DNA of 64,000 nt from Ornithodoros turicata (Eukaryota > Arthropoda > Arachnida > Ixodida > Argasidae): contig NC_088204.1 of the NCBI RefSeq assembly GCF_037126465.1, positions 69,253,807 through 69,317,806 of the forward strand, written 5' to 3'. Made by a program: the position numbers and the translations under genes. Each line of letters opens with the position of its first letter. Positions within the stretch are counted from its first letter, which is position 1. Under the pieces are notes generated by a model, which searched no databases, was not told the DNA's origin, and was given only the letters and a program-made list of their open reading frames with translations. This document shows, in pieces, positions 25,345-62,555 of this stretch.

Positions 25345-25615
25345 TAGCTAGTATTCTGGCACCTTATGGTGCAGTCCCAGTAAAAAATATCAAGTGGCAC
25401 TATTTCAAAGTGCTTTATTGGACAGGTGCCACTTCGAATGTGGGACCAGTGGAAAGTGGAACCAGTTTCACGAAGGGTCCACTTGAAGAGGAACCAGTTG
25501 AATTGATCCTGTGGTCACCTCTGCTAGGTCGTCTTGGACCGGGCCACATAGCAGCTGGACCACTGAATGCATGACACAAAATAATGCGTAGAAATCCGCA
25601 TATTGTTCAAGTGAA
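25345..25615. repeat. dispersed repeat R, copy A (target of the PolB palindrome)
   Basis: It is rich in GTGGGACCA / GTGGAACCA words and closely related to 47445-47705. The palindrome interrupts it at CAAGTGAA, and its continuation is found at 46309-46345. No coding potential was recognised. Confidence 0.7.
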
Positions 25616-26683
25616 TAGTATAGAGCCGTTACGCACAACAGCCACTTTTTTCTAATCCAGTTGTAGGAATTTCTAATCCACCACCCATTTCTAATCCAGT
25701 TCAAGCCAGGTCTAATCCAGGCTCCACAACTTCATGGTGATCCATCCAATTTCTATGTGATTGGCTACCCTTCATTGCCACATCTGTTCACTCGCTCACA
25801 AACACCAAAATTATCTATTCTATTCAATTCTAAGTCTGCTCATAGGCTTCCAAATCGCTCTTTTTTCTAATCCAGTTCTAGGAATTCCTAATCCACCACC
25901 CATTTCTAATCCAGGTCAAGCCACTTCTAAGCCCTCTAGTTGGTTGGTCACAGCTCCACCCCTTCATGGTGATCCATTCAATTTCTGCATGATTGGCTAC
26001 CATTCATTGCCACAACATCTGCTCACTCGCTCGTAGACACCAAAATGATCTATTCTATTCAATTCTAAGTCGGCTCATAGGTTTCCAAATCGCTCACCTG
26101 TCTATTGGTCCAGGGGTGGTCACTTTCATTCATTTCTAAAACCTAGTGATTGGCTCAGGATCCTATTGGCTGCCTCCCATACATGTTCGATAGACTCATT
26201 CGTCATTCCTACTCACAGGTTACTCGGTCACACGCTTTCAACTGCATATTGCGTCATAATTCCAGCTGCATAATAGACAACCACTCATTGATCAATCCCA
26301 TTCATTTCTAGCCCAGCTCACAGTTCCCCCAAATTGTTTATTGATCCGGGAGGCCTTCTTTTTTAGCCTGAGCGACTCTTGGCAGTGGTTGGGACACAAA
26401 AACATGGTAAATAGTTTTCAATGTTTATTGAGTACATCATGGCAGTCTCGGAGATATTGCAGTTCTCCCTGGGGACACATCCATGCACGCCGTACATCTC
26501 TGCTCGCGTCCATGGCATTTTTCGCATAAGAACCATGTGGATCACCCAGGCACTCGTCCTTCTCTGTCCATGACCCAGAGGCAAACCGCAGGAGAGAACA
26601 GTATGTAACAGAAGCATTAATTCCCTTCCTGCACATCTTCTGAAGAGATGAAAGAACATTATGAGCTTCACTATTTACATCAT

Positions 26684-29600
26684 CTATTTGAACTTACCAT
26701 ATTCACAGCTTCCGTAAGGGTAGGATTCGATGTCATTGCAGAGGTATCGCTTGTCGTCATATGCCATCAGACTTCTTTTGACGTTTTTGATGGTGTACAT
26801 GCACTGTTTCTTTCCAATGATCGATACTTGCTCGTTCGATACGCTCGTGTGATCGATCAAGGTATCGTAGTATGTCTCATGGAGGAGGTGCTTGCGTACA
26901 ATATTTTTCTTTACCCCTTTAGCTCTTGCAATTTGCTTTTCTCCAGCTAGTTTGATGGAGTACATTTTAGCTTTCAAGCATATTACTTCTTCGATAGGTA
27001 CACTACCAGTTTCGCTTTTGAATGCCCCAAGTCTTCCACGATTCTTTTCACTGTACAGTCGATGATCCCGATCAAAGGAAGACAGATCTAAGTGGTCGTC
27101 GGCGATCGCTCCTAACTGATCTTCGTAGTCCTTGCAGAATAGGCCGAGGCTCAAAGAATCCGTGTCAAAGTAGCAGGTAATCACCGGACAAGTGAGCTTG
27201 CTCAGCAAGGTTTCATAGTAGAATGAGTACATGGTTAATTTACTGAGTTCTAAAATCGTAAACCCAATCTGGAGCGGGAAATCGCACCGCACTTTTCGTT
27301 TGCGCATTTCGTACATGACACAATCCGGGGACAAAATTTCCATCCGCACGCATTCTGCCCGACTCCCGAGGCGACTCGCCGTCTCCTCATCGAAGGCTAC
27401 TCGAATGTCCCGCATGTTAAATTTATTTAAAAGCGTTCTTCCGCATACCGCATTATTTGAGAGTTTATAGAAATTTTTTTCGGATGTCGTGCCCGAGGCA
27501 ACGCGTCTGGCAACATTGTCCTCGATGTAGGGACGCAGGAATGGTGCCTGGTGAAATTTTAGAATTCGGTGAATTTTCGTCACCCTCATGCCCAATCTAC
27601 AATCGAGTGCGAGCAACGCGTAATGAACGACGTACTCGAACTTGTCCTTGCACGTGAGCAACAGCTTTTTGCTGTTAGCAGGCTGATACATTAATTCTTC
27701 GAGAAGCCCTCGCTGGAATGACGAGAGCCATTCCTTTGGGACAACTGCCTTCTCAGGAGCCAGGGGGAAGTACCTTGTTAGAGCGTGGATAGACTTTGGA
27801 TACTCCAAGTCACATACCCCACCTCCGAATCCGTGGGGTGACGCATAAAATCCACGGAGCTAAAATCCTCGACCCATTCGAAATCACCGACAGGGAGGTG
27901 CTTTATCATACTAAATCCGTAAAGATTGTTGCAATCTATGTATGATATGTACACGTCCTCTACATCAGGATCATAACCACTACATGGGGGTTATTGGCAC
28001 GTAAATGACGCCTGCTCGCCTGACAGAGCACACCTGTAACGCCCGATTCGAGGGTTCTGTACATTTCCTCATCGATAATCAATTCCAATTTTGCATTCGT
28101 ATAATTTAATGCGCATTGCCACGAATAGGACGCGAGAGAAGTGCAATGAAGCAATTCCAATCCGCTTGCGCTGTAGCACAGGCGTCGGAAGTGCTGGATT
28201 ATGTCTGCATGTAATAGGGCATCCGTTTTCAGGTACAATGTGTTATAATCCCGTAAACTCGAGCACCCAAAATGTTCAAATACATGCACGGCATACTAGT
28301 AGTCCTCGGCGCTTACATCTTCCCCAGTTAGATCATTTCGAAAAGCGGATTTTTCTGGGAGTCTCAACTCGTCGTACACTGCAAAAGAACTAAGATAACT
28401 GTAAGGGAATACACCTTTACGAAGCAAAATTTTGTAGTCTTCTCCAAATACCTGCTTCAAGCATTGGAATGCCTCTGCACCCCCCATGGATTTGACGGTT
28501 TCCACAAGCTCCCCAAGTGACGAATTTAGGCACTGCATGGTATCTCTGAAGAGGAAGGTACCAATTTCGAACGAACGAATTTTTTCCATGGAGCTGGTCA
28601 CAATGAAGGGAGGTCGCTTCCACCCGAGAACGTGAAATTCCCGTAACAGTCCAGCCAGATCATAAGACAAATTGTGGACCATGATCGGCAATTTTTCTCT
28701 GGTAGTGCACGCAACGTTACAGGGGTTGCACGGTGTCGCGATATAATTTGTCTCACCCGCAGTACAATGCTTCGAATGATCATGATGCCGGACACGAGGT
28801 AGGTCTTTTGCGAATTCCCGTTTACAGTATGCACAGTGGGTGGCAGCTCTGTGCTTGGCCTGTTGTTCATCGCTCAACACCATTGTAGCGGGGCAGGCGT
28901 TCAAAGCAATCATTTCATGACGCATTTCCATGAGCGCCTTCACACGCTGCTTTGCCGCATCTTCCCCATGGTGTGTTCTAATGCGCATCACCTTTGAGTC
29001 ATGGGTACGCAGGAGCACAGCACAGAAGCTAGAGTTAATGTGACGTTGCATGCCAACACCACTGGGTGCGAGTACACTCTCAGTGTCCAATGCAACGACG
29101 TAGTTGTACTGCTGCATGTACTGTATTTTAGTAAACTCTACAAAATTTTTTCCCGGCTCGCAAAATTCCAACAGGATTTCGTTCACGTCCGTGCAACGGC
29201 GTCGATGTTTCGCCATGCTCTCTTCCTTCACGAAAGAGCGTGTGCAGCGTTCGCATATGAAATGGTTACTTCTTGTTGTCAACAAGCGTCCGAGGGACTT
29301 AATTAAAAAAAAATGGTCATCTACTTCCAACAAGTGAATTTTCTTTTCCCATTCTAGTTTTGGGGGTCGCGACACATGTACTCCCTGATCGACGTACGCG
29401 TACACGGCAATCTTGTTTTGGTTTTCGAATTGGTCAAGATCAGAGAAGGATACAGGGAAGTGACTAGGCCACCAGTACTCTGTTGCATAATTTTCATATT
29501 TTTTCCATCGGTTCCTTTCCTGCGGGTGCAAGAGGGCGAGGGTATTGTATTTAAAGCACTCGCCCTCCTTACGCTCTGGTAAAGGAACATTCGTTAGGAC

Positions 29601-30266
29601 ATTCCTACGACTAGCCAAATTAGTGGGAAGTACCCCATTGCACCCGAATTTTTTAGTTTTCACAGAGGAAATACACATTTGAACTTTTTGGACGTCAGTG
29701 GATACAAACCCACTACCCTCGCGCTGGTAATTTTCAATGCGCCCGGGAGTCCTGAATCATGTCCATCAAAGTATTTGCGATAGCTCCGTCGCTGTGGACT
29801 TCGCGAGCAAGCGCCATAAAATGAGCTATGTGTGCGGTTATATCCCCTCGATTTTCTTTCATCATTAGAACGTCATAACAAATGCAAAATCTAAAGGGTA
29901 TTCTTTGCGCTCGCAAAATAGCAATTATATTGTGGAGGTGGTTCATTAAATATTGTCGCAAGTCCTCTACTCCCTGATCGTGAACAGATGCCAATAGCAC
30001 ACACGCTTTGACGATACCTCGAAATGCACTATCAGTTTGAAAGAAAGGCAGAAAGGAAATGTCCACATAGGGATGTGATCGCTCGACGTGAGCATGCAAT
30101 GTTCCAGGTGAAATGTCTGGAGAATATGGTGAATTCTCTTCCAATGGCTCATCATCCCTGATATCATGAGGACCAAAAAAGCAGAACAAGCATCTAGGCA
30201 CTGAAAAAAAAAAGAAGAAACACTAAGAAAACGTGCACCACAGAGCGTGGATGAAAAATACTTACT
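26684..30266 (-). pseudogene. family B DNA polymerase, left-arm copy, broken
   Basis: A protein-primed-type PolB (DNA_pol_B_2) of Polinton type. Domains in order: N-terminal C2H2-like finger (CLFCFFG... HVERSH), second finger (CERCTRSF), 3'-5' exonuclease motifs (ALDTES, HNLSYDLAG, YLKTDALLHAD), polymerase A (DCNNLYG), B (KLSNNAVCG) and C (DTDS). The start codon is assembled by splicing: A at 30266, TG at 30200-30199, with a 65-base intron between. A second intron near the 3' end is suggested by GTAAGT at about 26695. Lesions: a 2-base loss near 29741, a nonsense codon at 28296, a one-base loss near 27990 and a 10-base loss near 27815. The enzyme would replicate the element. This copy cannot make it. 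Confidence 0.9.
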
Positions 30267-30333
30267 TTTGAAGCGAGCTCCGCACACTCCCGAAGCGATG
30301 CGAAGACTGCTGCCTCTTTACACATCCTCCCCA

Positions 30334-30342
30334 CTTATATAG
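30334..30342 (-). promoter_or_regulatory. TATA box of left-arm PolB
   Basis: CTATATAAG on the minus strand, about 70 bases upstream of the first splice donor and preserved identically in the right arm. Confidence 0.65.
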
Positions 30343-32760
30343 CGGCGACCTCGGTGCATGCCCCAACATGCACGGGTGCGAGGAGTCGTCATAGCCTAAA
30401 AATAACTCGCTCTGCATGTTCAAGGTCGCAGCTTGCCCTTGGCTTCACGTAATGCTCCGTCCGCCTACACCATTGTTGTACCTGAGCGCAAAATTCGCGC
30501 TCTCATCACATGTCATTCCGACATGCAAGTCGCTTCCATGAGCATGCACACAACCATACCTTTTTGTTCACAGTGGCTATGGAATTTCAATAATATTACT
30601 TAAATGAAACAAATTACAGTGAAATGCAGATTCATCTCGGACAGGAATTTCTACCCTCAGCGTTAAACCCTCAGATACCAGCATTTCTGCTCGAATAGCA
30701 AAATAGCTATGATTTCAAAAATTAAAGCTAACAAACTACCATCAACTGACAAAACACCCATTTCTCCTATCAGATAATTATTGCATAATGCTACATACAG
30801 TCGCATTGTCCCCGCGTAAAGAAACCACAGGGCAAGGGTACACAAATTCACTTAAGCGATGAGGGAATAGGCTTAAGACCTCAGGAATAATCGCAGAGTC
30901 ACCACACATCGCTACGCGGCTAGCGCAAGATAACAACAAGATACTAGCGGCGGGTAAAATCGTAACACTGCTAAACAAGTCCCAACATGCCATGATGACG
31001 TCACAAACCAAGAAAAAAGCACACACGCGCGCGCACACAGCAGCTCAGGAATGCACAAGGAGATGTGCTTTATTGGAATTTTTACTCCTGGCTCAGACAC
31101 CAACATTTCTGCTCAAATACCCATAACTGCAAGATTAAGTACTGCTTACTTCATGGAGCACCCAACAAAATCTAACAAACAAACAAACAAAAACAAACAA
31201 ACCCACTTTCCGTGATAGAACACTATTCAGCTTTACCAAGTGATTTTCTTCAGCTTTAGCAGTGAAAGAAGAAAAGAGCCATGAAAAATTACACGTACTT
31301 CTGCTTAAATAGCTATAACTGAAAAAAAAACGAAGCACATGGTAATAAACGGAGAAAAAGGCACCCATTTCTGCTATCAGATAATTATTGCATAATGCTA
31401 CATCCACAGTCGCGTTGTCTCTGTGTAAAGAAAGCAGAAAAAGGGAATTGGGAAAATCACTTCTACTCGCGCAGCATAATACGATATACGCTATTTTTTG
31501 TACGGGCGAAAATTGCAATAAGAAGCCACTGCTATGCAAGTGCAACAACCCTTATTTTTAAACCAACCATTTTATGCAGTACCACATAAATTTATCACTC
31601 GAGTCACACGAAAAGGCATACACAATGTACTTACTGGTTAAGTGGGGTCGCAGTTGCACACACAACACAGACACAACGAGCGACAGTGAAAAATAAGAAA
31701 TTACACGCACTTCTGCTCCAATAGCAAAGTGTCAAGCATGACAAAACCCATTTTCTATCACCAGAAAATTATTAAACAGAATAATACAATATTCGCAAAA
31801 ATTAAGCTTGTGTGACAAACACACAACCTGAGGAACACACCCATTCACATCTGCTTTCTGAATTTGTTATACAGGCGTGAGCGATTCGATAAGAATATAA
31901 AGCACGCTGCTTGGAGAAAGCATATATCATGTGTAGCTCAGTCTACTCTATTGAAAATGCGATAAACCTTATTTTTCCAACAAAAAAAAATCACACTCGG
32001 CATAATATACGGCAATATAGGCAATATCACTGAAGTCAAACACATTGAACTTACTTGTCAAGTGGGGTCCCAGCTGCACAAACGCGCACGCACACTCACA
32101 CATTTTTAGTGCCTCACAACGAGCAAAAACCCGAGGTCTATTCACAGCCACATAAATTCATATTATTCCTCACGTCAATAGTTATCCAACCATCGTCAAA
32201 ACGGGGAACACGCATATGCCAATGCGAAACAATAGGCCTTCCCGCCGGATGTAATACGATATCGCCAGTCGACCGTCCCAAAGCAAAAAAGAAACACAGC
32301 ATCTCAGGAATGCATGCCGCCTATACATCCAAGAACAGCGTGCAGCAATTATAACACAGAATGAGATTCATTTATTTGTACTTTTGTTTGCTTGCATATA
32401 AATATTTCACAAGAAATATTACAGAGTGTAAAAGGAGAACAGTATTCGCTACACCCTGTAGCTCTTATCATTTTTAAACAAACCAGTTTTCATAACCACA
32501 CTACCATTCACTAAATAGGTGAATGATTCAAATAAGATAAAATATAATTCCATCATCATTGATTGCAAACTTCACGCAAGAATAAGCAACTGCTGCGCGT
32601 CGTATTTTTCTACAGCAAATCTCGCCGTCTTAAACACCAACAGCAACGAAGAGTAGGCAATTTTGTATTTATTTTTGTCGTTTCCAGCAGCTCATTACTT
32701 TGTGCGAGCCATCAAAAATTAAAAATTTCTGATCTGCTGCTGTTAAAGTGATAAAACAGT
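30343..32760. other. left-arm non-coding region of the palindrome
   Basis: No gene seen. Modules repeat inside it: ATAATTATTGCATAATGCTA occurs near 30776 and 31381, and GCAGAAATG-type words occur every few hundred bases. The module with ACAAGATACTAGCGGCGGGT at about 30933 recurs near 56970, next to the virion-gene block. Confidence 0.65.
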
Positions 32761-32866
32761 GCCCTCGAAACGCGCCCCCACGTGAGCCGCATCTGGCCCG
32801 TTCACGCAGTTACGACACGCTTCACGCAATGACGTGCCCTCCGTTATCGTTTCCCCGTGCGGGCAC
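32761..32866. other. asymmetric central spacer of the palindrome
   Basis: A GC-richer 106-bp spacer separates the two arms and contains the near-repeats GTTCACGCAGTTACG and CTTCACGCAATGACG. It does not belong to the inverted repeat and could be the original joining sequence or an origin-like site. Confidence 0.6.
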
Positions 32867-34759
32867 ACTGTTTTATCACTTTAACAGCAGCAGATCAGAA
32901 ATTTTTAATTTTTGATGGCTCGCACAAAGTAATGAGCTGCTGGAAACGACAAAAATAAATACAAAATTGCCTACTCTTCGTTGCTGTTGGTGTTTAACAC
33001 GGCGAGATTTGCTGTAGAAAAATACGACGCGCAGCAGTTGCTTATTCTTGCGTGAAGTTTGCAATCAATGATGATGGAATTATATTTTATCTTATTTGAA
33101 TCATTCCCCTATTTAGTGAATGGTAGTGTGGTTATGAAAACTGGTTTGTTTAAAAATGATAAGAGCTACAGGGTGTAGCGAATGCTGTTCTCCTTTTGCA
33201 CTCTGTAATATTTCTTGTGAAATATTTATATGCAAGCAAACAAAAGTACAAATAAATGAATCTCATTCTGTGTTATAATTGCTGCACGCTGTTCTTGGAT
33301 GTATAGGCGGCATGCATTCCTGAGATGCTGTGTTTCTTTTTTGCTTTGGGACGGTCGACTGGCGATATCGTATTACATCCGGCGGGAAGGCCTATTGTTT
33401 CGCATTGGCATATGCGTGTTCCCCGTTTTGACGATGGTTGGATAATTATTGACGTGAGGAATAATATGAATTTATGTGGCTGTGAATAGACCTCGGGTTT
33501 TTGCTCGTTGTGAGGCACTAAAAATGTGTGAGTGTGCGTGCGCGTTTGTGCAGCTGGGACCCCACTTGACAAGTCAGTTCAATGTGTTTGACTTCAGTGA
33601 TATTGCCTATATTGCCGTATATTATGCCGACTGCGATTTTTTTTGTTTGAAAAATAAGGTTTATCGCATTTTCAATAGAGTAGACTGAGCTACACATGAT
33701 ATATGCTTTCTCCAAGCAGCGTGCTTTATATTCTTATCGAATCGCTCACACCTGTATAACAAATTCAGAAAGCAGATGTGAATGGGTGTGTTCCTCAGGT
33801 TGTGTGTTTGTCACACAGGCTTAATTTTTGCGAATATTGTATTATTCTGTTTAATAATTTTCTGGTGGTAGAAGATGTGTTTTGTCATGCTTGACACTTT
33901 GCTATTCGAGCAGAAGTGCGTGTAATTTCTTATTTTTCACTGTTGCTCGTTGTGTCTGTGTTGTGTGTGCGACTGCGACCCCACTTAACCAGTAAGTACA
34001 TTGTGTATGCCTTTTCGTGTGACTCGAGTGATAAATTTATGTGGTACTGCATAAAATGGTTGGTTTAAAAATAAGGGTTGTTGTACTTGCTTAGCAGTGG
34101 CTCGTTATTGCAATTTTAGCCCGTAAAAAAAATTAGCGTATATCGTATTATGCTGCGCGAGTAGAAGTGGTTTTCCCAATTCCCTTTTTCTGCTTTCTCT
34201 ACACAGAGACAACGTGACTGTAGATGTAGCATTATGCAATAATTATCTGATAGCAGAAATGGGTGCCTTTTTCTCCGTTTATTAGCATGTGCTTCGTTTT
34301 TTTTTTCAGTTATAGCTATTTAAGCAGAAGTACGTGTAATTTTTCATGGCTCTTTTCTTCTTTCACTGCTAAAGCAGAAGAAAATCACTTGGTAAAGCTG
34401 AATAGTGTTCTATCACGGAAAGTGGGTTTGTTTGTTTTTGTTTGTTTGTTTGTTTGTTAGATTTTGTTGGGTGCTCGATGAAGTAAGCAGTGCTTAATCT
34501 TGCAGTTATGGGTATTTGAGCAGAAATGTTGGTGTCTGAGCCAGGAGTAAAAATTCCAATAAAGCACCTCTCCTTGTGCATTCCTGAGCTGCTGTGTGCG
34601 CGCGCGTGTGTGCTTTTTTCTTGGTTTGTGACGTCATCATGGCATGTTGGGACTTGTTTAGCAGTGTTACGATTTTACCCGCCGCTAGTATCTTGTTGTT
34701 ATCTTGTGCTAGCCGCGTAGCGATGTGTGGTGACTCTGCGATTATTCCTGTGGTCTTAA

Positions 34760-35765
34760 AGGGGCCGTAAACAGGCCACCAAACATTTCAGAAATAATGA
34801 TACCCTATGAAAGACCGCAGATCATAATACCCAAATATACATTTTGTCTGGCCCGTGCCAGCTCGGTGACCCATATAACTGCTTTCAAAGATGAGTAACC
34901 AGCGAGCCTCTCTCCACCACGCATACGTCACATGGCTACGTAGCGTTTTGCCGTCCAATCGGGGGGCCGAGCTGCGCACATGACGTTTCAAATTACCAGC
35001 CAATAAACATACTTCATTATCAGCTGTGAGTCAGAGCGCTCAGTTTGTTTGTGTGGAACTACATTTTGCGCTCCGTGGTTCCGAAATTCAACGTCATGGC
35101 ATATTCAACATATCCGGCTGTCGCAAACGTCAACAGTTGGGCTGCTGTCACATGACGCCATTCGAACCCGGGTTCCTCCCAGTCACGAGATGACATGGCC
35201 AACACACTAACCACTGTTCCACGCGAGCTGGTGACGCGATGCCGCGTGGCTCAAGCCGAAGTACGGCAGGCCAGGTGACGGAACCATTCGAAGATGACGA
35301 AGATGTCCCATCGCGCACCTACTATGGCGGGCTACACCTACCTAAGATTCCGGAACTGTAGTCCCGGATATTCATTCGCGCTCGTGGTGTGCTGCCTGCT
35401 ACTGCCCAGAAAACGTAGTGCGCGTATGATACATAAATTAAACGCATTTCTTTTTCACTTAGAGGATGTAACTGTTTAGATTTTGAACAGAAGAGGATTC
35501 ACGTTCATCTAGTCCAATTCCGCATTTGAAATAAAATCATACGTGGAACACTCGACCGTAATTGGTGAGCAAAGCGCTACGTCAAAACGACGTAAAGTTA
35601 GAGCGTGGGGCGGAGCTACAATGCGAAAGAGTGCAGTGAATATTTCATTCGTATGCAAGCGCCTTTCGCTTTTGAGCGTTAGTAATTGCAAGGAGTTTTC
35701 ACTGCCTAAGTTTCAATAATATAACACAAAGAAATGGGCCACTTGTGTACCTGTTTACGGCCCCT
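34760..35765. mobile_element. TTAA-targeting MITE, 1006 bp
   Basis: The ends AGGGGCCGTAAACAGG and the exact reverse complement are flanked by TTAA (34756-34759 and 35766-35769). The left arm of the palindrome preserves the empty site GGTCTTAAGCC near 30866-30876, so insertion happened after the palindrome formed. The TTAA duplication suggests piggyBac-type mobilisation. No transposase is present. Confidence 0.9.
35155..35230 (-). mobile_element. tRNA-like SINE promoter segment inside the MITE
   Basis: On the minus strand an A-box-like word (GAACAGTGGTTAGTGTGTTG) is followed about 35 bases later by a B box (GGGTTCGAAT). The full cloverleaf is weak, so this is called a tRNA-derived repeat rather than a gene. 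Confidence 0.5.
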
Positions 35766-36292
35766 TTAAGCCTTTTCCCTCATCGCTTAAGTGAATTTGT
35801 GTATCCTTGTCCTGTGGTTTCTTTATGCGGGGACAATGCGACTGTATGTAGCATTATGCAATAATTATCTGATAGGAGAAATGGGTGTTTTGTCAGTTGA
35901 TGGTAGTTTGTTAGCTTTAATTTTTGAAGTCATAGCTATTTTGCTATTCGGGCAGAAATGCTGGTATCTGAGGGTTTAACGCTGAGGGTAGAAATTCCTG
36001 TCCGAGATGAATCTGCATTTCACTGTAATTTGTTTCATTTAATTAATATTATTGAAATTCCATAGCCACTGTGAACAAAAAGGGATGGTTGTGTGCATGC
36101 TCATGGAAGCGACTTGCATATTCGGAATGACATGTGATGAGAGCGCGAACTTTGCGCTGAGGTGCAGCAATGGTGTAGGCGGACGGAGCATTACGTGAAG
36201 CCACGGGCAAGCTGCGACCTTGAACATGCAGAGCGAGTTATTTTTAGGCTATGACGACTCCTCGCACCAGGGGCATGCAGCGAGGTCGCCGC

Positions 36293-36300
36293 TATATAAG
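36293..36300 (+). promoter_or_regulatory. TATA box of right-arm PolB
   Basis: TATATAAG, with the mirror copy at 30334-30342. The first exon ends at 36368 and the intron is 36369-36431. Confidence 0.65.
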
Positions 36301-36367
36301 TGGGGAGGATGTGTAAAGAGGCAGCAGTCTTCGCATCGCTTCGGGAGTGTGCGGAGCTCGCTTCAAA

Positions 36368-37800
36368 AGTAAGTATTTTTCATCCACGCTCTGTGGTGCA
36401 CGTTTTCTTAGTGTTTCTTATTTTTTTTCAGTGCCTAGATGCTTGTTCTGCTTTTTTGATCCTCATGATATCAGGGATGATGAGCCATTGGAAGAGAATT
36501 CACCATGTTCTCCAGACATTTCACCTGGCACATTGCATGCTCACGTCGAGCGATCACATCCCTATGTGGACATTTCCTTCCTGCCTTTCTTTCAAACTGA
36601 TAGTGCATTTCGAGGTATCGTCAAAGCGTTTGTGCTATTGGCATCTGTTCACGATCAGGGAGTAGGGGACTGAAGGGGAATATTTAATGAACCACCTCCA
36701 CAATATAATTGCTATTTTGCGTGCACAAAGAATACCCTTTAGATTTTGCATTTGTTCTGACGTTCTAATGATGAAAGAAAATCGAGGGGATATAACCGCA
36801 CACATAGCTCATTTTATGGCGCTTGCTCGCGAAGTCCACAGCGACAGAGCTATCGCAAATACTTTGATGGACGTGATTCAGGAGTCCACCGGGCGCATTG
36901 AAAATTACCAGCGCGAGGGTTGTGGGTTTGTATCCACTGACGTCCAAAAAGTTCAAATGTGTATTTCCTCTGTGAAAACTAAAAAATTCGGGCGCATTGG
37001 CGTACTTCCAACTAATTTGGATAGTCGTAGGAATGTCCTAACGAATGTCCCTTTACTAGAGCGTAAGGAGGGCGAGTGCTTTAAATACAATACCCTCGCC
37101 CTCTTGCACCCGCAGGAAAGGAACCGATGGAAAAAATATGAAAATTATGCAACAGAGTACTGGTGGCCTAGTCACTTCCCTGTATCCTTCTCTGATCTTG
37201 ACAAATTCGAAAACCAAAACAAGATTTCCGTGTACGTGTACGCGTACGTCGATCAGGGAGTACATGTGTCGCGACCCCAAAACTAGAATGGGAAAAGAAA
37301 ATTCACTTGTTGGAAGTAGATGACCACTTTTTTGGAATTAAGTCCCTTGAACGCTTGTTGACAACAAGAACTAACCATTTCATATGCGAACGCTGCACAC
37401 GCTCTTTCGTGAAGGAAGAGCGCATGGCGAAACATCGACGCCTTTGCACGGACGTGAACGAAATCCTGTTGGAATTTTGCGAGCCGGGAAAAAATTTTGT
37501 AGAGTTTACTAAAATACAGTACATGCAGCAGTACAACTATGTGGTTGCGTTGGACACTGAGAGTGTACTCGCACCCAGTGGTGTTGGCATGCAGCGTCAC
37601 GTCACCTCTAGCTTCTGTGCCGTGCTCGTGCGCACTCACGACTCGAAGGTGATGCGCATCAGGATGCACCACAGTGAAGACTCCGCGAGGCAGTGCGTGA
37701 AAGCTTTAATAGAAATGCGGGACGAAATGATCGCCTTGAATGCCTGCCCCGCCCAAATCGTGCTGAATGATGAGCAATGAGCATGGCACAGAGCTGCCAC
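36368..37800 (+). pseudogene. family B DNA polymerase, right-arm copy A, 5' part only
   Basis: The start codon is again split by the first intron (A at 36368, TG at 36432-36433). The copy contains the N-terminal C2H2-like finger, the CERCTRSF finger and the first exonuclease motif ALDTES. There are frameshifts near 36670 and 37280 that are absent from the left arm. The homology stops at about 37800, where the CCTCA minisatellite begins. The exonuclease segment is present again from 39022 in copy B, so this is the 5' piece of a recombinant. Confidence 0.85.
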
Positions 37801-37802
37801 CA

Positions 37803-38110
37803 GAGGTGGGCAAATGCCCTCACGATCTTTGCCCTCACCTCATTTTTCGTCACAGATGTTTTTCCTCACCTCACCTCATTCTTGGGGAGACTTAGTTCCT
37901 CACCTGACCTCACCTCAACCTCCTTTTAAATTTATTTTCCTCACCTCACCTCACCTCAACCTTCTTTCTGATGTATTTTCCTCATCTCACCTCAACCTTC
38001 ATTGTAAAGTATCTTCCTCACCTCACCTCACCTCAATTTTCTTTCTAAAATATATTCATTTACTTGTTATAATTTTTGCCTCGTCGAGCTCACCTTAACC
38101 AGTTTCTGTA
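37803..38110 (+). repeat. degenerate CCTCACCTCA minisatellite
   Basis: Clusters of CACCTCACCTCA separated by T-rich spacers (ACCTTCTTTCTGATGTATTT type) recur with a period of about 60 bases. There is no equivalent in the left arm. Confidence 0.7.
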
Positions 38111-38228
38111 AAACGTTTTCACTTCACAATTGCTCTTTCAATTAGGAGTGGCGTTGCTCCTAGCCACAGTTGCTTGGCGGCGCTAACACGGCATCAAAAA
38201 AGTATTAGGAGCGGGTAGGTGTATACGT

Positions 38229-39010
38229 TAGTAGTATAGAAATGTGTCTTATAGCCAAGAGTTTTCTCTAATCCAATTCCAATCCAATTCTAATCCACTT
38301 TTAATCCAATTCTAAGCCATAATCCAGTTCTAAGCCAACACAATCCAATTCTAATCCAACACAAGCCAAATCCAAAGCCATCTGATTGGCCGCCATTAGC
38401 TCCGCCCACTTTACGTTGATTGGCCCATGCTAAGCCTACTGATCTTTGATTGGCTGACCGTAGCTCCGCTCCTTTATGCTAATTAGTTGGCTTGGCTCCG
38501 CCCAGTTCACACTGAATGGCCCGTGCTAAGCCTACTGATCATTGATTGGTTGACTGTAGCTCCGCTGCTTTATGCTAATTACTTGGCTCCGCCCACTTCA
38601 CGGTGATTGGTGCCTGTGTATCGCTGAGCACAGCTCCGCCTCTTTATGCTAATTACCGGCTCCGCTGATTGGTCCATTCTAAGCCTACTGATCACTCTCC
38701 ACATTTTCCAGACTTTCTAAGCCCTCAGATTGGCCGTCCCCAATTTAAGCCTACCTATTGGCCCGTTCTAAGCCCACTGATTGGCCCGCTGAACATAGCC
38801 TTCATTAGCGCCCGCAAGATGGCAGCGGCCCCGCTGCGGCTTTATCTCAGATGCTCAAACTTACCATGTGGCGTGCAACTTTCCGCCCACTTCATGCTGA
38901 TTGGTCCACTCTAAGCCTACTGATTCAGACGTCTAAGCCAAAGCCTACTGATCACCCTTCCAGACTTTCCTAACGCTCTGATTGGCCGTCCCCAATGTAA
39001 GCTACCGATT
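38229..39010 (+). promoter_or_regulatory. second TIR-like end with a CCAAT / GC-box / ATGCTAAT array
   Basis: It opens with TAGTATAGAAATGTG, close to the palindrome terminus TAGTATAGAGCC, then TTCTAATCCA words as in the outer ends. From about 38390 a loose tandem unit of around 100 bases repeats ATTGGC, GCTCCGCCCA and TTTATGCTAATTA (three times). It looks like a subterminal end that also carries promoter-type sites. Function is inferred only from motif density. Confidence 0.55.
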
Positions 39011-40769
39011 AGCCCTCATGCATGCAGCAGTACATGCAGCAGTACAACTACGTCGTTGCATTGGACACTGAGAGTGTACTCGCACCCAGTGGTGTTGGCA
39101 TGCAACGTCACATTACCTCTAGCTTCTGTGCTGTGCTCGTGCGTACCTATGACTCAAAGGTGATGCGCATTAGAACACACCATGGAGAAGATGCGGCAAA
39201 GCAGTGTGTGAAGGCGCTCATGGAAATGCGTGATGAAATGATTGCTTTGAACGCCTGCCCCGCTGCAATGGTGTTGAGCGATGAACAACAGGCCAAGCAC
39301 AGAGCTGCCACCCACTGTGCATACTGTAAATGGGAATTCGCAAAGGACCTACCTCGTGTCCGGCATCATGATCATTCGAAGCATTGTACTGTATTCGAAG
39401 CATTGTATTGTAGTGTACTGCGGGTGAGACAAATTACATCGCGACACTGTGCAACCCCTGTAACGTCGCGTGCACTACCAGAGAAAAATTGCCGATCATG
39501 GTCCACAATTTGTCTTATGATCTGGCTGGACTGTTACGGGAATTTCACGTTCTCGGGTGTAAGCGACCTCCCTTCATTGTGGCCAGCTCCATGGAAAAAA
39601 TTCGTTCGTTCGAAATTGGTACCTTCCTCTTCAGAGATACCATGCAGTGCCTAAATTCGTCACTTGGGGAGCTTGTGGAAACCGTCAAATCCATGGGGGG
39701 TGCAGAGGCGTTCCAATGCTTGAAGCAGGTATTTGGAGATGACTACAAAATTTTGCTTCGTAAAGGTGTGTTCCCTTACAGTTACCTTAGTTCTTTTGCA
39801 GTGTACGACGAGTTGAGACTCCCAGAAAAATCTGCTTTTCAAAATGATCTAACTGGGGAAGATGTAAGCGACGAGGACTACCAGTACGCTGTGCATGTAT
39901 TTGAACATTTTGGGTGCTCCAGTTTACGGGATTATAACACATTGTACCTGAAAACGGATGCCCTATTACATGCAGACATAATCCAGCACTTCCGACGCCT
40001 GTGCTACAGCGCAAGCGGATTGGAATTGCTTCATTGCGTTTCTCTCGCATCCTATTCGTGGCAATGTGCATTAAATTATACGAATGCAAAATTGGAATTG
40101 ATTATCGATGAGGAAATGTACAGAACCCTCGAATCGGGCGTTAGAGGTGTGCTCTGTCAGGCGAGCAGGCGTCATTTACGTGCGAATAACCCTTTGTGTA
40201 GTGGTTATGATCCTGATATAGAGGACGTGTACATATCATACATAGATTGCAACAATCTTTACGGATTTAGTATGATAAAGCACCTCCCTGTTAGTGATTT
40301 CGAATGGGTCGAGGATTTTAGCTCCGTGGATTTTATGCGTCACCTCACGGATTCGGAGGTGGGGTATGTGTCCGTATGTGGCTTGGAGTATCCAAAATCT
40401 ATCCACGCTCTAACAAGGTACTTCCCCCTGGCTCCCGAGAAGGCAGTCGTCCCAAAGGAATGGCTCTCGCCGTTCCAGCGAGGGCTTCTCGAAGAATTAA
40501 TGTATCAGCCTGCTAACAGCAAAAAGCTGTTGCTCACGTGCAAGGACAAGGTCGAGTACGTCGTTCATTACGCGTTGCTCGCACTCTATTGTAGATTGGG
40601 CATGAGGGTGACGAAAATTCACCGAATTCTAAAATTTCACCAGGCACCATTCCTGCGTCCCTACATCGAGGACAATGTTGCCAGACGCGTTGCCTCGGGC
40701 ACGACATTCGAAAAAAATTTCTATAAACTCTCAAATAATGCGGTATTCGGAAGAATGCTTTTAAAGAAT

Positions 40770-43700
40770 CGCTTCTAAAGAAACGCTTTTAAAATCACTG
40801 TTTGTACATCCACACTGATTGATGTCTTCATTACTAACAAGAACGAATCTGATATAGTTGCTGGTGCCCTCTCATGCGACATTGGTGACCATCTTCCGAT
40901 TTATGCATTTGTTGCGCCCGCGTACAGACGCAGGGAGATGCCTGTTTACTACACTTCACAATTAATTACTGCCGAATCGCTTGGGAAATTTCGAAATGAT
41001 ATCCAGAGCGTCGACTGGTCTTTCGTCACCACGAAGCAATGTGTGAACGAAGCCTATGACGAATTCCTCTGCCTGTTTAAACGTATTTATGATGCTAACT
41101 TTCCAGTTAGGGCTAAAAAAATAAACCGCCGCGTACGCAAACCCTGGGTGACCCGAGCATTACTGAAACTTATTGCAGAAGAAAATAAACTCTATCATGA
41201 GTTTCTTAGTTCTAGGGACAGCAATGTCTTTAAAACTTTTAAGAGCTTTCGTAATCGCGTCGCAGCATGCGTCAAACGTACAAAGGCGATCTATTTCAGG
41301 GACTTATTTCCAAATGCACATGACTCAGCAGCTACATGGAAAGCAATAAGAAACATCACAAAAATAGATCGTCGTGAGGTTACTCACGTAAGCGTTGGTG
41401 GCGTAACCTTAACTGGTGAGAGCCTATGCACAGAATTCAATCAACACTTTGTAAATGTTTCCAGGCAATATTCCGCCCCATCTCTTTCTGGCACAAACTA
41501 TTACAGAACTACCCCGAGGAATATGGACTCCGTCTTCCTTGAGCCAACGACTGAAAGTGAGGTCTTTACACTATTCATGAATAGTAAAAACAGTAAGGCA
41601 TCTGATTACGAATCCTTCCAAATTGGTCCTGTTAAATTTCCCTAGTAGCACAAAACGTCGCAGAAACGTCTTTATTTGGTCAAATTAGGATAGAAGACGA
41701 TCAGGACGTCAACGCGACGTCTAGATGCCGTAATTTATAGTATGTTTATAAGACGCGCCGATTTAACGTTTATAATACGTCTTCGGCATCTCTGTTGAAG
41801 GGATATCCTAAAGGAAGACCTCCCGTAAACGTCTTCCGTTCACGTTTGCAAGAAGTACCGAGTTTCCGTTTATAATACGTCTTCGACATCTCTGTTGAAG
41901 AGGTATCATTAAGGAAGACATCCTGTAAATATCTTCCGTTCATGTTTGCTAGACGTGCCAACTTTCCATCTATAATACGTCTTCGCCAACTGTGTTCAAG
42001 ACGTATCTTAGACGAGGACGATTTGTGTACACTGAATAAGTTTACTTTCGGTGGACCTACTGACTGCCTCAAACCAAAATCAGTAGGAAACACAGGCGTT
42101 GAGTTGACAGTGAGTTAATACTCCCAGAAATTTCCCACTTCAGTGTTGTTTCTGTGCATAACTGAAATAAACTTAGACACCTCACCCTCTATTTTGACTC
42201 AAAGGCGAGCACGGCTATCGAGTTTACGGGAGTTTCTAAGACAAGCAATGTATAGTATCTGTTTTCCCTTTGCAAGGGACTAGACCACCTCTACGCTCTG
42301 GTTCCCCCACGTGTAACGCCGTGGAGGAAGCCTGCTGTTCTTACGGTAGGAGCACCTTTGCTAACGTGGTCCACCTTTGTGAACCGCATCTTCGATTTTC
42401 GCTGAAACGACACGTGGCAGTGTTGCTTGCAGTTCTGCTTGGAGAAACAGAAAATGGAACGTGTGGTGACGGTAGCTGAAGTTGAAAAATAAAAAAAAAG
42501 AGGCAGATCTCCGGAAAACTGTACCCGGTGGGTATCAACAGGGATCAATTTTCTCACATTCAAATTAGTGTTCTAAACATTTTTTGAACGTCTTCAAGAC
42601 GGCCACAAACACGTCTTCAAGACTCGGGGAAGCATCAACTTATCCGCGGGTAGAAAACGTTATGTAGATCAGATTGAAGACGTCTCCTAGATGAAAATAT
42701 GGTTGTGACTAGACCTTTCCTGGACGTTTATAAAACGTTTTGTGCTACTAGGGTTGTTATTGACATCCTTGCTCCTGTGCTAACCCACATATACAACCTC
42801 TCCCTCTCAACTGGTATCTACCCGCAAAAAATGAAAATATCCAAAGTCATCATTTTACGTAAATCGGGTAAACAACATGATGAGCTTGGGAACTTTAGGC
42901 CAATATCAATACTGCCTGTTTTCTCCAAAGTGCTAGAAAAATAATTCATTCTCGAATAACGAAGTTCTTCTCCATACATAATGTCATTTCAGATTCACAG
43001 TTCGGTTTTCGTAAGAAATACTCAACCGAGGCTGCGCTTTTATATAAAAAAGAATTAATCATTCAAAATCTTGAAAATAAGTTCTATACATTAGGTATCT
43101 ACATTGATTTTACAAAGGCCTTTGACCTTCTAGACCATGGCATACTGTTAGAAAAACTCGAACATTGCGGCGTACGTGGGGTGGCACTGTCTCTTCTGAG
43201 GTCCTACCTGGAAAACAGATACCAATATGTGTATAATAATAACTGTCACTCTGACATGTTACAGCTAATCGCGGGTGTACCCCAGGGTAGTAGCTTAGGG
43301 CCGCTTTTATTTAGCACGTATGTGAATGACATTACCACAGTCACTGAACTTGGGCAATTTTTCATCTACGCCGATGACACTACCTTATTTTTCTCGGGGA
43401 ATGTAATTGACGACCTTATTAGGAAGGCGAACAGAGCCCTGGCAGATATCGGCACTTGGTGCGCAAAAAATCGTTTAATCATAAATGCGGCTAAAACAAA
43501 GGCGATACTTTACAGGCGGAGAAATAAGCCAGAACACCACTCGCTTAACATTTCCCTGGGAGATGAGGCTATTGAAATAGTCAAAACTGTAAAGATACTG
43601 GGAGTGTTTTTCTCCGAACACCTCTCCTGGGATGCCCATGTAAGCTATCTAAAGGGAAAGATAAGCAAAGCGATAGGAATCTTGAGTAGGCACAGATACT

Positions 43701-44495
43701 TATTACCCAAGTCTGTTAAGTTATTGATATTTAATTCCCTAATCATGTCTCACTTCAACTATTGTCATCTCGTATGGGGCACGACAACACAACAAAACCT
43801 AACTACTCTTCTCCTACAGCAAAAACGTGCAATACGGCATATTGCTTGTGTACCAGCTCTTTCGCATACTGCTGACATCTTCCGTAGCCTCCATATCATT
43901 AAAATAGACCATTACTATGATTATCATCTTTTCAAAGCCTACCTCACTGCAGTTAGACATGATAACCAGTTAATCTTATCACTGTTCAAACTAAAACAAA
44001 ATCTTACCCAAAAAACTCGACAGGCCCAGCTTTGGCAAGTGCCTCGATCGCGTACAACCTATGGTGACCAAACTGTATCGTATCATATCTCGTCGCTTCT
44101 TAACAAATATACTCTGCATGGGCTAGACATACACAGCTTCTCATTGAAAGATCTGCGATCTATGTTTGTCACCTGACTTCACCTGCTTAGAGTCTATGGT
44201 TTCCATTTGTACTTTGACTCACTTGTTGTTCATGTTGTATATTCTTGGGTTTCTTCTTTTTTTTTTCAATTAATATTTTTTGCTCAAAGTTACATTGCAC
44301 GAATCATATTGTGTATTGTCGTCACGTGTGTATTGCTTGTATGTAGTACTTTACTGCCGTTATGCCGAGTATCCTCTTGGGGGTGTGCCCTCGTCAAGCA
44401 GCAGTCTTGCTGCTTTTAGGCCATCCCTTGTACATAGCCAGTGTAAGTTACATTCCCATCTCTTGAATAAATTCAATTCAATTCAATTCAATAAA
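40770..44495 (+). pseudogene. CR1/Jockey-group LINE, 5'-truncated, inserted in PolB
   Basis: The ORF starts within the endonuclease C-terminus (STLIDVFITN, SCDIGDHLPIY), passes a basic linker, then a MITE (41640-42753), then RT blocks NFRPISILPVFSK, YIDFTKAFDLLDH, AGVPQGSSLGPLLF and the catalytic YADDTTLFFS, and ends at 44174-44176 without RNase H. A stop or shift near 42945 breaks the RT. The 3' tail is an (ATTCA)n run at about 44468-44492. The left arm keeps the empty site CTTTTAAATAAATTTAAC near 27420. Confidence 0.85.
41640..42753. mobile_element. 1.1-kb MITE with CCCTAGTAGCAC ends
   Basis: The ends CCCTAGTAGCACAAAACG and reverse complement are flanked by TT. Removing the element and one TT restores the LINE reading frame through KFVID, so the boundaries are exact. 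Inside, a unit with TTTATAATACGTCTTCG recurs about every 100 bases, and ACGTC words are frequent. I cannot assign the superfamily. Confidence 0.8.
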
Positions 44496-45491
44496 TAAAT
44501 TTAACATGCGGGACATTCGAGTAGCCTTCGATGAGGAGACGGCGAGTCGCCTCGGGAGTTGGGCAGAATGCGTGCGGATGGAAATTTTGTCCCCGGATTG
44601 TGTCATGTATGAAATGCACAAAAGAAAAGTGCGATGCGATTTCCTGCTCCAGATTGGGTTTACGATTTTAGAACTCAGTAAATTAACCATGTACTCCTTC
44701 TACTATGAAACCTTGCTGAGCAAGCTCACTTGTCCGGTGATTACCTGCTACTTTGACATGGATTCTTTGATCCTCGGCCTATTCTGCAAGGACTACGAAG
44801 ATCAGTTACGAGCGATCGCCGACGACCACTTAGATCTGTCTTACTTTGATCGGGATCATCCACTGTACAGTGAAAAGAATCGTGGAAGACTTGGGGCATT
44901 CAAAAGCGAAACTGGTAGTGTACCTATCGAAGAAGTAATATGCTTGAAAGCTAAAATGTACTCCATCAAACTAGCTGGAGAAAAGCAAATTGCAAGAGCT
45001 AAAGGGGTAAAGAAAAATATCGTACGCAAGCAAATCCTCCATAAGACATACTACAATACCTTGTTCAATCACACGAGCGTATCGAACGAGCAAGTATCGA
45101 TCGTTGGAAAGAAACAGTGCATGTACACCATCAAAAACGTCAAAAGAAGTCTGATGGCATATGACGAGAAGCGATACCTCTGCAATGACATCGAATCCTA
45201 CCCTTACGGAAGCTGTGAATATAGTAAGTTCAAATGGATTATATAAATAGTGAAGCTCATAATGTTCTTTCATTTCTTCAGAAGATGTGCAGGAAGGGAA
45301 TCAACGCTTCTGTCACATACTGTTCTCTCCTGCGGTTTGCCTCTGGGTCATGGACAGAGAAGGACGAGTGCCTGGGTGATCCACATGGTTCTTATGCGAA
45401 AAATGCCATGGATGCGAGCGGAGATGTACGCCGTGCATGGATGTATCCCCAGGGAGAACGACAATATCTCCGAGACTGCCATGATGTACTC

Positions 45492-45497
45492 AATAAA
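45492..45497 (+). terminator. polyadenylation signal after right-arm PolB
   Basis: AATAAA about 200 bases beyond the PolB 3' intron, mirrored in the left arm near 26425. Confidence 0.5.
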
Positions 45498-46305
45498 CAT
45501 TGAAAACTATTTACCATGCTTTTGTGTCCCAACCACTGCCAAGAGTCGCTCAGGCTAAAAAAGAAGGCCTCCCGGATCAATAAACAATTTGGGGGAACTG
45601 TGAGCTGGCCTAGAAATGAATGGGATTGATCAATGAGTGGTTGTCTATTATGCAGCTGGAATTATGATGCAATATGCAGTTGAAAGCGTGTGACCGAGTA
45701 ACCTGTGAGTAGGAATGACCAATGAGTCTATCGAACATGTATGGGAGGCAGCCAATAGGATCCTGAGCCAATCACTAGGTTTTAGAAATGAATGAAAGTG
45801 ACCACCCCTGGACCAATAGACAGGTGAGCGATTTGGAAACCTATGAGCCGACTTAGAATTGAATAGAATAGATCATTTTGGTGTCTACGAGCGAGTGAGC
45901 AGATGTTGTGGCAATGAATGGTAGCCAATCATGCAGAAATTGAATGGATCACCATGAAGGGGTGGAGCTGTGACCAACCAACTAGAGGGCTTAGAAGTGG
46001 CTTGACCTGGATTAGAAATGGGTGGTGGGTTAGAAATTCCTAGAACTGGATTAGAAAAAAGAGCGATTTGGAAGCCTATGAGCCGACTTAGAATTGAATA
46101 GAATAGATAATTTTGGTGTTTATGAGCGAGTGAACAGATGTGGCAATGAAGGGTAGCCAATCACATAGAAATTGGATGGATCACCATGAAGTTGTGGAGC
46201 CTGGATTAGACCTGGCTTGAACTGGATTAGAAATGGGTGGTGGATTAGAAATTCCTACAACTGGATTAGAAAAAAGTGTCTGTTGTGCGTAACGGCTCTA
46301 TACTA

Positions 46306-47444
46306 CCCAAGTGAAGGTTGTTTATTCTGCTAAAAGCGTACACCGAGCACATCTCCGTGATCACTAACTGTGTCTAGAGACTATAGGCATATGCCTGTGT
46401 TGACAGTGCGCTGCACTCACGGACCACAGGGCGCATGGAGTTTTGTTGACCGCCTCACATCTTGTACCTTCTCAGAGAAGATGTCACCTCTGTTCTCCAT
46501 GCAGGCCGCGACATGTACTCCCTTCCTCTTCACCACACGTTTGGAATCTTTAAACACTTCTTATCCTGTTTCTCTTCAAGTTCTTCCTAAGTTTCTAAAA
46601 TGAAACATCTACTTCATAGTGATCAAGGCATCACGGTCAGCCCTCATATCTGCTGACACCAGAACAAGCACTATTACGGTAATGTCATGAAAAAAATGTT
46701 TTTGAGCTGTGTCTAACATGTGTCTCAAAGCGCAGTGTGCTCTGGTGCTGCACGCCAGGATCCCTGGTGCCTTCTGATGCTCTAGTGTTCCACATTATGC
46801 TGTCGCGTGCATTCGATCCCACAAGGTACTTGGTTCCTCAACCCACTCACGAGGCTGAAACATGTTTGGCTTGGGTGCTAATTAGATTTAGACATCAAAA
46901 GTTGTCTACTGCAAAGGAATCCCGGCTGTTACCAGGGGGGCGGATATGTTTATTGAGAATAAAGAAAGGCAACGTTAGCCAAACATAGAGGCGGCTTGCT
47001 ATTCCGAAAAAAAGGGAAAGAAAAGGGGCAAGCGAAAAAGAAAGGGAAGGAGAAATTAAAAAACAATAAGGGGAATCAAAAAAGAAAAGGAAGGAAAAAA
47101 AAGAAAAACGGGGGAATCGAAAAAAGGAAGGAAAAAAGAAAAACGGGGAAAACAAAAAAACAAAAAAGAAAAAGGAAAGAAAGAAAGAAAATAAACACTA
47201 GGACAACGTTACATGCAGTTCACGGGTCCTGAGACTCGGAGAAAATCGAGGAGAGCGGCAGGCTGTTAATTGTTGACAATACAGTATACTGAACACCGCC
47301 AGAAATAGAAATAGACAAAAGCGTGTAATAAAACTGCGTATATTATGGCTACCATTGATGGTACATATTTAGGAGAAGCATGCGTACCATAATATAAAAG
47401 TGCAAAATGGTGCACTGTTATTTCATCTGCAGATGTCAATACAA
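46306..47444. other. no gene seen; polypurine tract
   Basis: The end of repeat R copy A (46309-46345), then unrecognised sequence. At about 47005-47195 nearly every plus-strand base is A or G. The Lys-rich frame over it is a composition artefact. Confidence 0.5.
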
Positions 47445-47705
47445 CATAGCTAAAATATGAAGTGGTACCATTTCAGGGTGGTTTATTGGACAGGTCCCAC
47501 TTTGAATGTGGGACCAGTGGAAAGTGGAACCACTTTCATGAAGGGTCCACCTGAAGTGGAACTTGTGATCCCTTCTTCTAAGTGGTCTCGAACCCGGCCA
47601 CTTTGTAGCTGGGACCACTGAATGCATGACCGAAAATAATGCGTAGAAATGCACATCTTGTTCAAGTAAATATTGCTTACTGTACCAAAAGCATACACTA
47701 AGTAG
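47445..47705. repeat. dispersed repeat R, copy B (uninterrupted)
   Basis: Matches copy A at 25345-25615 and continues past the CAAGTAAAT site where copy A was interrupted, giving an approximate empty site for the palindrome. Confidence 0.7.
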
Positions 47706-56723: not shown

Positions 56724-57039
56724 ATAAAAAATAAAAAAATAGGCAGAAAATAAAATAAAAAGATAGAAATAGAGTGGAGAGAAACAATTTATTCGAAAAT
56801 CAACGATGCCGCGGCGAAGAAGCCGCTCCGCAACTCCCGAGTGACCAGCGTCCGCCATGTTGGTAGTTTGCACCCAGCAGTTGCAGAGATCGACGACAGG
56901 TGGCCACTTAGTTGCAAGGCATCACACCAGATGGCGCCACCATCATAGCTCTAAACGAGAAAGACAGAGAACAAGATACTAGCGGCGGGTAAAAATGACA
57001 GCACTGCTAAGCAAGTCTAGGCATGCGAGAGAAAAGGTC
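56724..57039. other. flank of the virion-gene element, shared module
   Basis: No gene seen. ACAAGATACTAGCGGCGGGT at about 56970 and following words match the palindrome arms near 30933 and 34685. The true left end of the virion-gene element may lie here, but no TIR could be fixed. Confidence 0.5.
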
Positions 57040-58062: not shown

Positions 58063-58070
58063 TATAAAGG
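58063..58070 (+). promoter_or_regulatory. TATA box of the virion-gene block
   Basis: TATAAAGG lies about 30 bases upstream of an initiator-like TCATTCT (about 58094) and 52 bases upstream of the first ATG. Confidence 0.65.
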
Positions 58071-58121
58071 CAGCGCGCACCGCGCTCGCGTCATCATTCT
58101 GACCGATACGTGGAAAACGCC

Positions 58122-62525: not shown

Positions 62526-62555
62526 AGGTCACACATCCGCTGCGCGCGCTCCGTC

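Follow-up and report, generated by a model that had tools for sequence, protein, structure and literature searches.

Inverted dimers of one end arise from linear replicons with protein-primed replication: the palindrome-hairpin derivatives of the yeast linear plasmid pGKL1 are dimers of the end carrying the DNA polymerase gene, and the symmetric recombinant (SYREC) DNA of adenovirus 12 is of this type as well. Among the transposons, members of the foldback (FB/Galileo) family have a 7-9-bp target duplication and a P/MULE transposase, and 8-bp target duplications occur in hAT, P, Merlin or MULE elements. To our knowledge, the replication of animal Polintons has been inferred and not observed. 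According to the available text of PMC8235507, part of the linear genome is self-complementary with one terminal repeat in the snapback subgenomes of AAV, and head-to-head dimers occur. Bidnaviruses are described in the accessible part of PMC4061559 as linear replicons thought to derive their PolB and terminal repeats from Polintons, and nine Polintons without capsid, protease and ATPase genes are given in the accessible part of PMC4028283. No description of a palindromic Polinton was found in the literature among the matches listed, as judged from titles and abstract openings.

The window, as the whole 64-kb stretch of Ornithodoros turicata DNA is called here, contains a palindromic element which spans 20,694 bp with its nested insertions and about 14.4 kb without them:

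25614..46307, no strand: whole palindromic element, its ends set from the register of both tips and of a third end (T2), its arms from self-alignment
25614..32761, minus strand: left arm, with tip, subterminal repeats, outward PolB and inner part
32762..32865, no strand: central spacer, 104 bp, 64% GC
32866..46307, plus strand: right arm, mirror of the left-arm content plus three nested insertions

A sequence-only reading had described a near-perfect inverted repeat of 20.7 kb at this place. The very large repeat is there, but "near-perfect" overstates an arm-to-arm identity of 97.5% (183 mismatches in 7181 aligned bases, with one diverged patch left out). The arm length of about 7.1 kb given in that reading was borne out: the left arm is 7148 bp by self-alignment, and the right arm, 13442 bp at present, comes to 7191 bp after removal of the three inserts. 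The spacer, given there as 106 bp, was measured as 104 bp. The inner part of the left arm (2.4 kb) carries no recognised gene; in the Pfam search none of 7 inner-arm ORFs scored above the cut-off, and Rfam gave no matches over 25000-47000. The spacer was also considered as the remnant of a virion gene, and this was rejected, its best match to Polinton ORFs having only E 0.17.

The two arms differ by later events in the right arm:

34760..35769, no strand: nested insertion 1, MITE-like, about 1.0 kb, with TTAA target duplication and inverted tips AGGGGCCGTAAACAGG
37540..37801, plus strand: diverged PolB patch, belonging to a nested block at 37540-39050
38230..39027, plus strand: T2, another (third) end from this element family, diverged in sequence, with AGTAGTATAGA followed by TTCTAATCCA-type repeats, truncated against the PolB of the arm
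40766..44495, plus strand: nested insertion 3, non-LTR retrotransposon fragment (RVT_1, E 1e-27)

All three insertions came after the formation of the palindrome. The patch shows about 17-20% divergence both from the left arm and from the copy at 39028-39312. Large palindromes are a recognised hazard for genome assembly, and a fold-back chimera or the joining of two haplotypes could produce such a structure; however, since the arms are separated by more than 180 substitutions and by three arm-specific insertions, an assembly artefact is very unlikely. The scar and the empty site described below are likewise consistent with an integrated unit.

The ends of the element and their surroundings were read as follows:

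25608..25613, no strand: left target-site duplication CAAGTG; the 8-letter identity CAAGTGAA extends to 25615
25645..26095, no strand: left subterminal repeats, two tandem units of about 215-235 bp with TTCTAATCCA motifs
45826..46276, no strand: right subterminal repeats, counterparts of the left pair
46308..46313, no strand: right target-site duplication CAAGTG; the 8-letter identity extends to 46315
47452..47698, plus strand: paralogous repeat without the element, used for the empty-site comparison by alignment of the joined flanks

The flanking direct repeat of 8 bp that had been noticed earlier does exist as eight identical letters (25608-25615 and 46308-46315), but with a duplication of this length the two ends become unequal by 2 bp, while with 6 bp (CAAGTG) both are in register. 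Since the 8-bp reading puts the tips out of register, the scar, as far as the letters go, reads better as a 6-bp target duplication within the 8-letter string, and a duplication in the style of hAT, P, Merlin or MULE elements was set aside. For pairs of positions drawn at random from the window, the frequency of a shared 6-mer is 0.0003 and that of a shared 8-mer 0.000025. Once joined, the flanks align across the site, gap-free, to the uninterrupted paralogous repeat; thus the flanking repeat is unlikely to be due to chance. Both tips are one substitution or less from the Maverick end motif (AGT)2//(ACT)2 and neither is exact, this motif being taken from vertebrate Mavericks. The T2 end inside the right arm, at 38230, has the exact (AGT)2 motif. 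Polinton-type ends and a scar thus stand at both sides of the element, a view which the paralogous empty site in the window supports. The 26-base tip was sought in viral contigs and not found there. The contrast with normal Polintons that had been drawn from the duplication length therefore probably fails, the scar being best read as an ordinary one of 6 bp beside Maverick-type ends.

Each arm contains one PolB gene, transcribed outward from the centre, as was seen by tblastn with the O. turicata proteins P0001 and P0082 and as had been claimed before:

26684..30200, minus strand: left PolB coding stretch (tblastn with P0001/P0082 and ORF pieces)
36431..45246, plus strand: right PolB (tblastn with P0001/P0082 and ORF pieces)

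Fold matches place the predicted product among the phi29-fold, protein-primed-type DNA polymerases, in the Polinton/adintovirus/bidnavirus group, and bidnavirus-like PolB takes ranks 8 and 9 among its viral fold matches. PDB sequence searches gave no matches, the polymerase was not found in phage records, and the protein search with P0082 matched only itself. The left copy carries two frameshifts, one deletion with frameshift and one stop codon (28296-28298), all absent from the right copy; the right copy carries two nested insertions, two frameshifts and a 29-bp duplication, all absent from the left one, and a further stop (37778) within the diverged patch. Since all lesions seen are arm-specific, both genes were probably intact when the mirror copy arose.

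The palindrome with two PolB genes might be the form in which a polymerase-only relative of Polintons normally transposes, using integrases in trans. With T2 the tip family has a second member, parts of the PolB of the element are shared at 86-89% identity with two O. turicata proteins, and the probable integrity of both copies at the start agrees with such a family, as does the excess of silent over replacement differences between the arms (2:1 per site). But three simulations (P 0.0545-0.1145) do not set this excess clearly apart from neutrality, so that purifying selection between the arms is suggestive only, T2 appears as a single end, and self-alignment revealed no second long palindrome within the 64-kb window. 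A real element family is accordingly regarded as unlikely. Scanning of genome contigs for related PolB gave 10 short loci; for 14 related loci, these and the viral ones together, the longest inverted match among the up to six listed per locus was about 110 bp.

A separate cluster of Polinton-like genes, with integrase and ATPase, lies 12-15 kb downstream of the palindrome:

30903..30981, plus strand: inner-arm stretch sharing motifs with the region upstream of the 57-kb cluster; mirror copy at 34651-34729
56970..64000, plus strand: separate Polinton-like gene cluster, continuing past the window end
58469..59104, plus strand: cluster ATPase
59889..60932, plus strand: cluster integrase, with a weak chromodomain match
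62526..63707, plus strand: cluster capsid candidate, a guess from size and place (mean pLDDT of the structure model 31)

The element was compared with 27 Polinton-type ORFs, 8 from this cluster and 19 from two viral contigs (L001 and L002) whose PolB is 34-35% identical to P0001. Pfam identifies an integrase and an ATPase in L001, while the content of L002 was assessed by visual inspection of its ORFs. The element was matched only by the two polymerases, all other matches having E 0.033 or worse, in agreement with the earlier statement that nothing but a polymerase is carried. Neither the integrases nor the packaging ATPases of L001 and of the cluster matched any part of the element with E 1 or better, and within the window the L001 integrase matched only 60072-60689. 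For capsid and protease no match better than E 0.03 was obtained among the 27 ORFs, PolB apart, a test weakened by the strong divergence of such genes; even between the capsid candidates in L001 and the one in the window there is no match.

The element resembles Polinton/Maverick elements (polintoviruses, animal adintoviruses) in that its PolB belongs to their fold group and Pfam family, its tips are near (AGT)2, its target duplication is best read as 6 bp and it has inverted terminal repeats; it differs from them in having no integrase or ATPase match and terminal repeats which make up nearly the whole element. With the reduced Polintons of PMC4028283 it shares the loss of virion genes from an element of the Polinton group; unlike them it is palindromic, a form unmentioned in the accessible part of that source, and has two PolB and no integrase match. 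Bidnaviruses are linear replicons with a PolB of presumed Polinton origin, but, as outlined in PMC4061559, they have their own parvovirus-type capsid and helicase genes, whereas among the pieces of the element that were scanned Pfam recognised no parvovirus-type capsid or superfamily 3 helicase.

A foldback-type transposon (P-superfamily Galileo or MULE/FB like) with a captured PolB would account for very long, full-length inverted repeats that contain subterminal tandem repeats. However, the scar and tips fit Mavericks, Pfam found no P/MULE transposase in those pieces of the element that were scanned, and a stretch of the inner arm recurs upstream of the Polinton-like cluster (E about 1e-9 in a comparison with the whole window), so we consider such an origin highly improbable. 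The shared stretch could also belong to a two-part Polinton system, in which two-PolB palindromes replicate and supply PolB, integrase and packaging come from virion/integrase segments like the 57-64 kb cluster, and both share an upstream control region (30903-30981, 56970-57017); we regard this as quite unlikely.

At both ends of the mirror structure stands an insertion scar like those of ordinary elements of its kind, which points to a replication product that had folded back and entered the chromosome in one piece. Such an origin, in which the genome captured a head-to-head dimer copied from linear DNA with protein priming, had been proposed in the sequence-only reading and is the best-supported mechanism. 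The element would then be a defective Polinton derivative, a dimer of the PolB-bearing end that was once free linear DNA, a reading to which we give about an even chance. The sequence itself shows the palindrome with its tips and scar, the identity of the polymerase, and the damage and insertions specific to each arm; the course of events up to integration is what we infer. A host Polinton would have had PolB at one end, reading toward the tip. During protein-primed strand-displacement replication, a strand retaining only the PolB tip would have folded back about 7 kb in, and a hairpin would have resulted when the polymerase copied the arm as far as the tip again. In the next round, primed at the sole tip, synthesis would have passed round the hairpin to yield a linear palindrome with the 104-bp loop at its centre and both ends formed by authentic Polinton tips. 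A complete Polinton would have provided, in trans, the integrase that joined both tips to the chromosome with a 6-bp duplication. The PolB copies then decayed independently, and three other insertions entered the right arm. The position of PolB at the parent's end is one that we infer, since no parent element with PolB and virion genes was found. The fold-back site is not marked, since the inverted repeat at the spacer edges is not beyond chance (354 of 1000 shuffles score equally high). The single such palindrome seen in the window, the absence of an exact (AGT)2 at either tip and the less likely reading of the scar as 8 bp count against this dimer, as does the fact that repair in place would give an identical scar and tips.

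Repair in place is a serious rival, though a less than probable one. An inserted Polinton with its 6-bp scar would later have suffered a double-strand break repaired by break-induced copying: one terminal inverted repeat would invade the other and copy the PolB arm inward, a 104-bp filler would make the join and the virion genes would be deleted. This accounts for tips, scar, loop and virion-gene loss without a free palindrome, and the right-arm block 37540-39050 (diverged PolB patch and foreign DNA) looks templated, so such repair may occur at the locus. It requires, however, copying of 7 kb in the inverse sense at one locus, and the arms bear no mark of the point at which an original, shorter terminal repeat would have stopped: the inner piece differs at 34/1888 and the outer one at 44/1814, with no sharp step in 200-base windows except at the patch.

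The snapback dimer has counterparts in other linear replicons. The AAV subgenomes of PMC8235507 are also self-complementary partial genomes with coding regions head-to-head in dimers; unlike the integrated element here, they are found in particles according to the available text, and parvovirus replication is not protein-primed. The pGKL1 derivatives and the adenovirus 12 SYREC DNA differ in being extrachromosomal, with no integration scar. If the snapback origin is true, the palindrome preserves, as a fossil, the kind of replication error to be expected when linear DNA is copied by protein priming, and the Polinton integrase accepts two copies of the same tip. If many mirror-image Polinton ends with 6-bp scars exist, Polintons would make defective and possibly interfering genomes, like other linear DNA viruses.

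Upstream of the PolB genes, the following were read by eye:

30201..30265, minus strand: candidate 65-bp intron of the left PolB, donor GTAAGT, acceptor TTTTCAG
30334..30341, minus strand: TATA-like box TATATAAG of the left PolB
36293..36300, plus strand: TATA-like box of the right PolB

Should the splice at the PolB start be misread, both arms would share a lesion, the lack of a start codon, which would count against the snapback dimer. The candidate splice, as read, would create a PolB start codon which matches the start of P0082.

Self-comparison of the window gave one outstanding inverted repeat (25614-46307), with one PolB gene in each arm, and the evidence for the palindrome comes from this one locus. 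In the global alignment of the left arm with the reversed right side, the match begins at the outer tips and continues inward as far as the spacer, which is 104 bp long (32762-32865) instead of the 106 bp of the sequence-only reading. That reading also gave about 7.1 kb for each arm; this holds for the left arm (7148 bp), while the right arm is 13442 bp as it stands and 7191 bp without three blocks missing from the left, which account for its greater length.

Right-arm blocks without left counterpart (global alignment)
34760-35769, first block
37540-39050, second block
40766-44495, third block

The mismatches were 44/1814 in the outer piece, 50/1701 in another, 34/1888 in the inner piece and 104/2026 in the piece 35766-37801, where 49 of them fell in the last 248 alignment columns, adjoining the second block. 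With this diverged patch excluded, the identity of the arms was 97.5% (183 mismatches in 7181). A direct repeat of about 90 bp in the inner arm (30741-30827 and 31345-31436) is mirrored in the right arm. The second block, bounded by an imperfect direct repeat of 285 bp, contains a PolB piece 17-20% diverged, CCTCACCTCA-rich DNA and T2, a truncated third end of the element's family; it looks like a templated insertion from elsewhere in the genome.

The string CAAGTGAA was found at 25608-25615 and again at 46308-46315, thus the eight letters reported earlier as a flanking direct repeat are present on both sides, but the duplication is better read as the 6-bp CAAGTG. In the 8-bp reading the left end begins TAGTATAGAG and the reversed right end is two bases longer, while the 6-bp reading brings the two ends, AATAGTATAGAG and GGTAGTATAGAG, into register, with each at most one substitution from (AGT)2, the motif of vertebrate Mavericks. 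T2 (at 38230) shows (AGT)2 exactly, and repeats of the TTCTAATCCA type come after it, as at the ends of the element. The passages on vertebrate Mavericks in PMC8097293 give (AGT)2//(ACT)2 as their commonest end motif and 6-bp duplications for intact copies. We therefore prefer a putative target duplication of 6 bp. GTAGTATAGA occurs in the window only at T2 and the right tip (0.05 expected).

The repeat at 47452-47698 resembles both flanks and lacks the element. Aligned with this repeat, the joined flanks run ungapped across the site and score 270 (243 left, 27 right). Taken alone, the right-flank part would be modest evidence, the maximum among 981 random 120-base pieces being 25.

The protein closest to the element's polymerase is from the soft tick Ornithodoros turicata (89% identity); with the similar result for the capsid candidate described below, this makes that species or a relative the probable source of the window. 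Damage to the left PolB comprises two frameshifts, a further lesion in which a deletion shifts the frame, and one stop codon. In the right PolB a stretch of 29 bp is duplicated, two insertions interrupt the gene and the frame is shifted twice; its remaining stops in the match rows lie at frameshifts, except one within the diverged patch. Neither coding stretch begins with an ATG, which we explain by a candidate splice. The arms differ by 34 silent changes on 738 sites and 63 replacements on 2745 sites, a silent share of 35% against 27-29% expected in neutral simulations (P 0.0595, 0.0545, 0.1145). Since no lesion common to both copies was found when left and right were compared, both genes were probably whole at the time of mirror copying; their divergence is compatible with decay.

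Other Polinton-type genes were searched for in the element with 19 ORFs of two related viral contigs and eight ORFs of a separate cluster.

56970-64000 (57-64 kb), Polinton-like gene cluster, extending past the window edge

PolB was the sole Polinton-type match of these 27 ORFs in the element, all others being at E 0.033 or worse; thus, despite its Polinton-like ends and scar, the element is no Polinton in the full sense. The absence of capsid and protease is not firm, both gene types diverging too fast for such matching. The integrase and ATPase of L001, one of the viral contigs, had their only matches in the whole window at 60.1-60.7 kb and 58.5-59.0 kb, respectively.

Since tips and scar are present on both sides, either a palindrome formed as free linear DNA and afterwards integrated, or a normal insert was converted into a palindrome at its site; both routes would fit the sequence. 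We weigh the integration of a free palindrome higher, because linear DNA replicons, among them yeast pGKL1 and adenovirus 12 (SYREC), are known to yield head-to-head part genomes as a by-product. For AAV, such genomes are described in PMC8235507. No fold-back repeat was detectable at the loop edges, which favours neither the free-palindrome nor the in-place origin. The point of interest is the combination of the palindrome with Polinton-type tips and a Polinton-type scar.

In the cluster, an integrase core was matched (PF00665, 1.2e-9; chromodomain sub-threshold), and the ATPase resembles that of L001 (E 1.8e-6; Pox_A32 sub-threshold). ORF 62526-63707 has three relatives without functional name, the closest protein being from Ornithodoros turicata (90% identity); its structure model failed, and only its length and position make it a candidate capsid gene. 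The inner arm and the region upstream of the cluster have 48 bp in common (87.5%, E about 1e-9 for the whole window), as well as the motif CACACATCGCTA (six places in the window, 0.22 expected), which hints at a common control region for element and cluster. Tandem repeats of 141 bp (57070-57600) precede the cluster, and a short element with inverted tips TGACCACGTTTATCCGGAAACGCA, recognized by eye, lies immediately to its left (56557-56725). AGTAGT at 56543 could be a cluster tip, but there are 12 copies of this hexamer in the window.

Reverse-transcriptase ORFs (RVT_1) lie within 11733-25207 amid long direct repeats, and ORF 24323-25207 looks like a Penelope-like element. A palindrome of 775 bp (52412-53186, 89% self-complementary) has two tRNA-Ala-like genes within it or at its edge (52807-52879, 53137-53209), and a relative that is tRNA-Thr-like lies at 10611; these are probably tRNA-derived SINEs.
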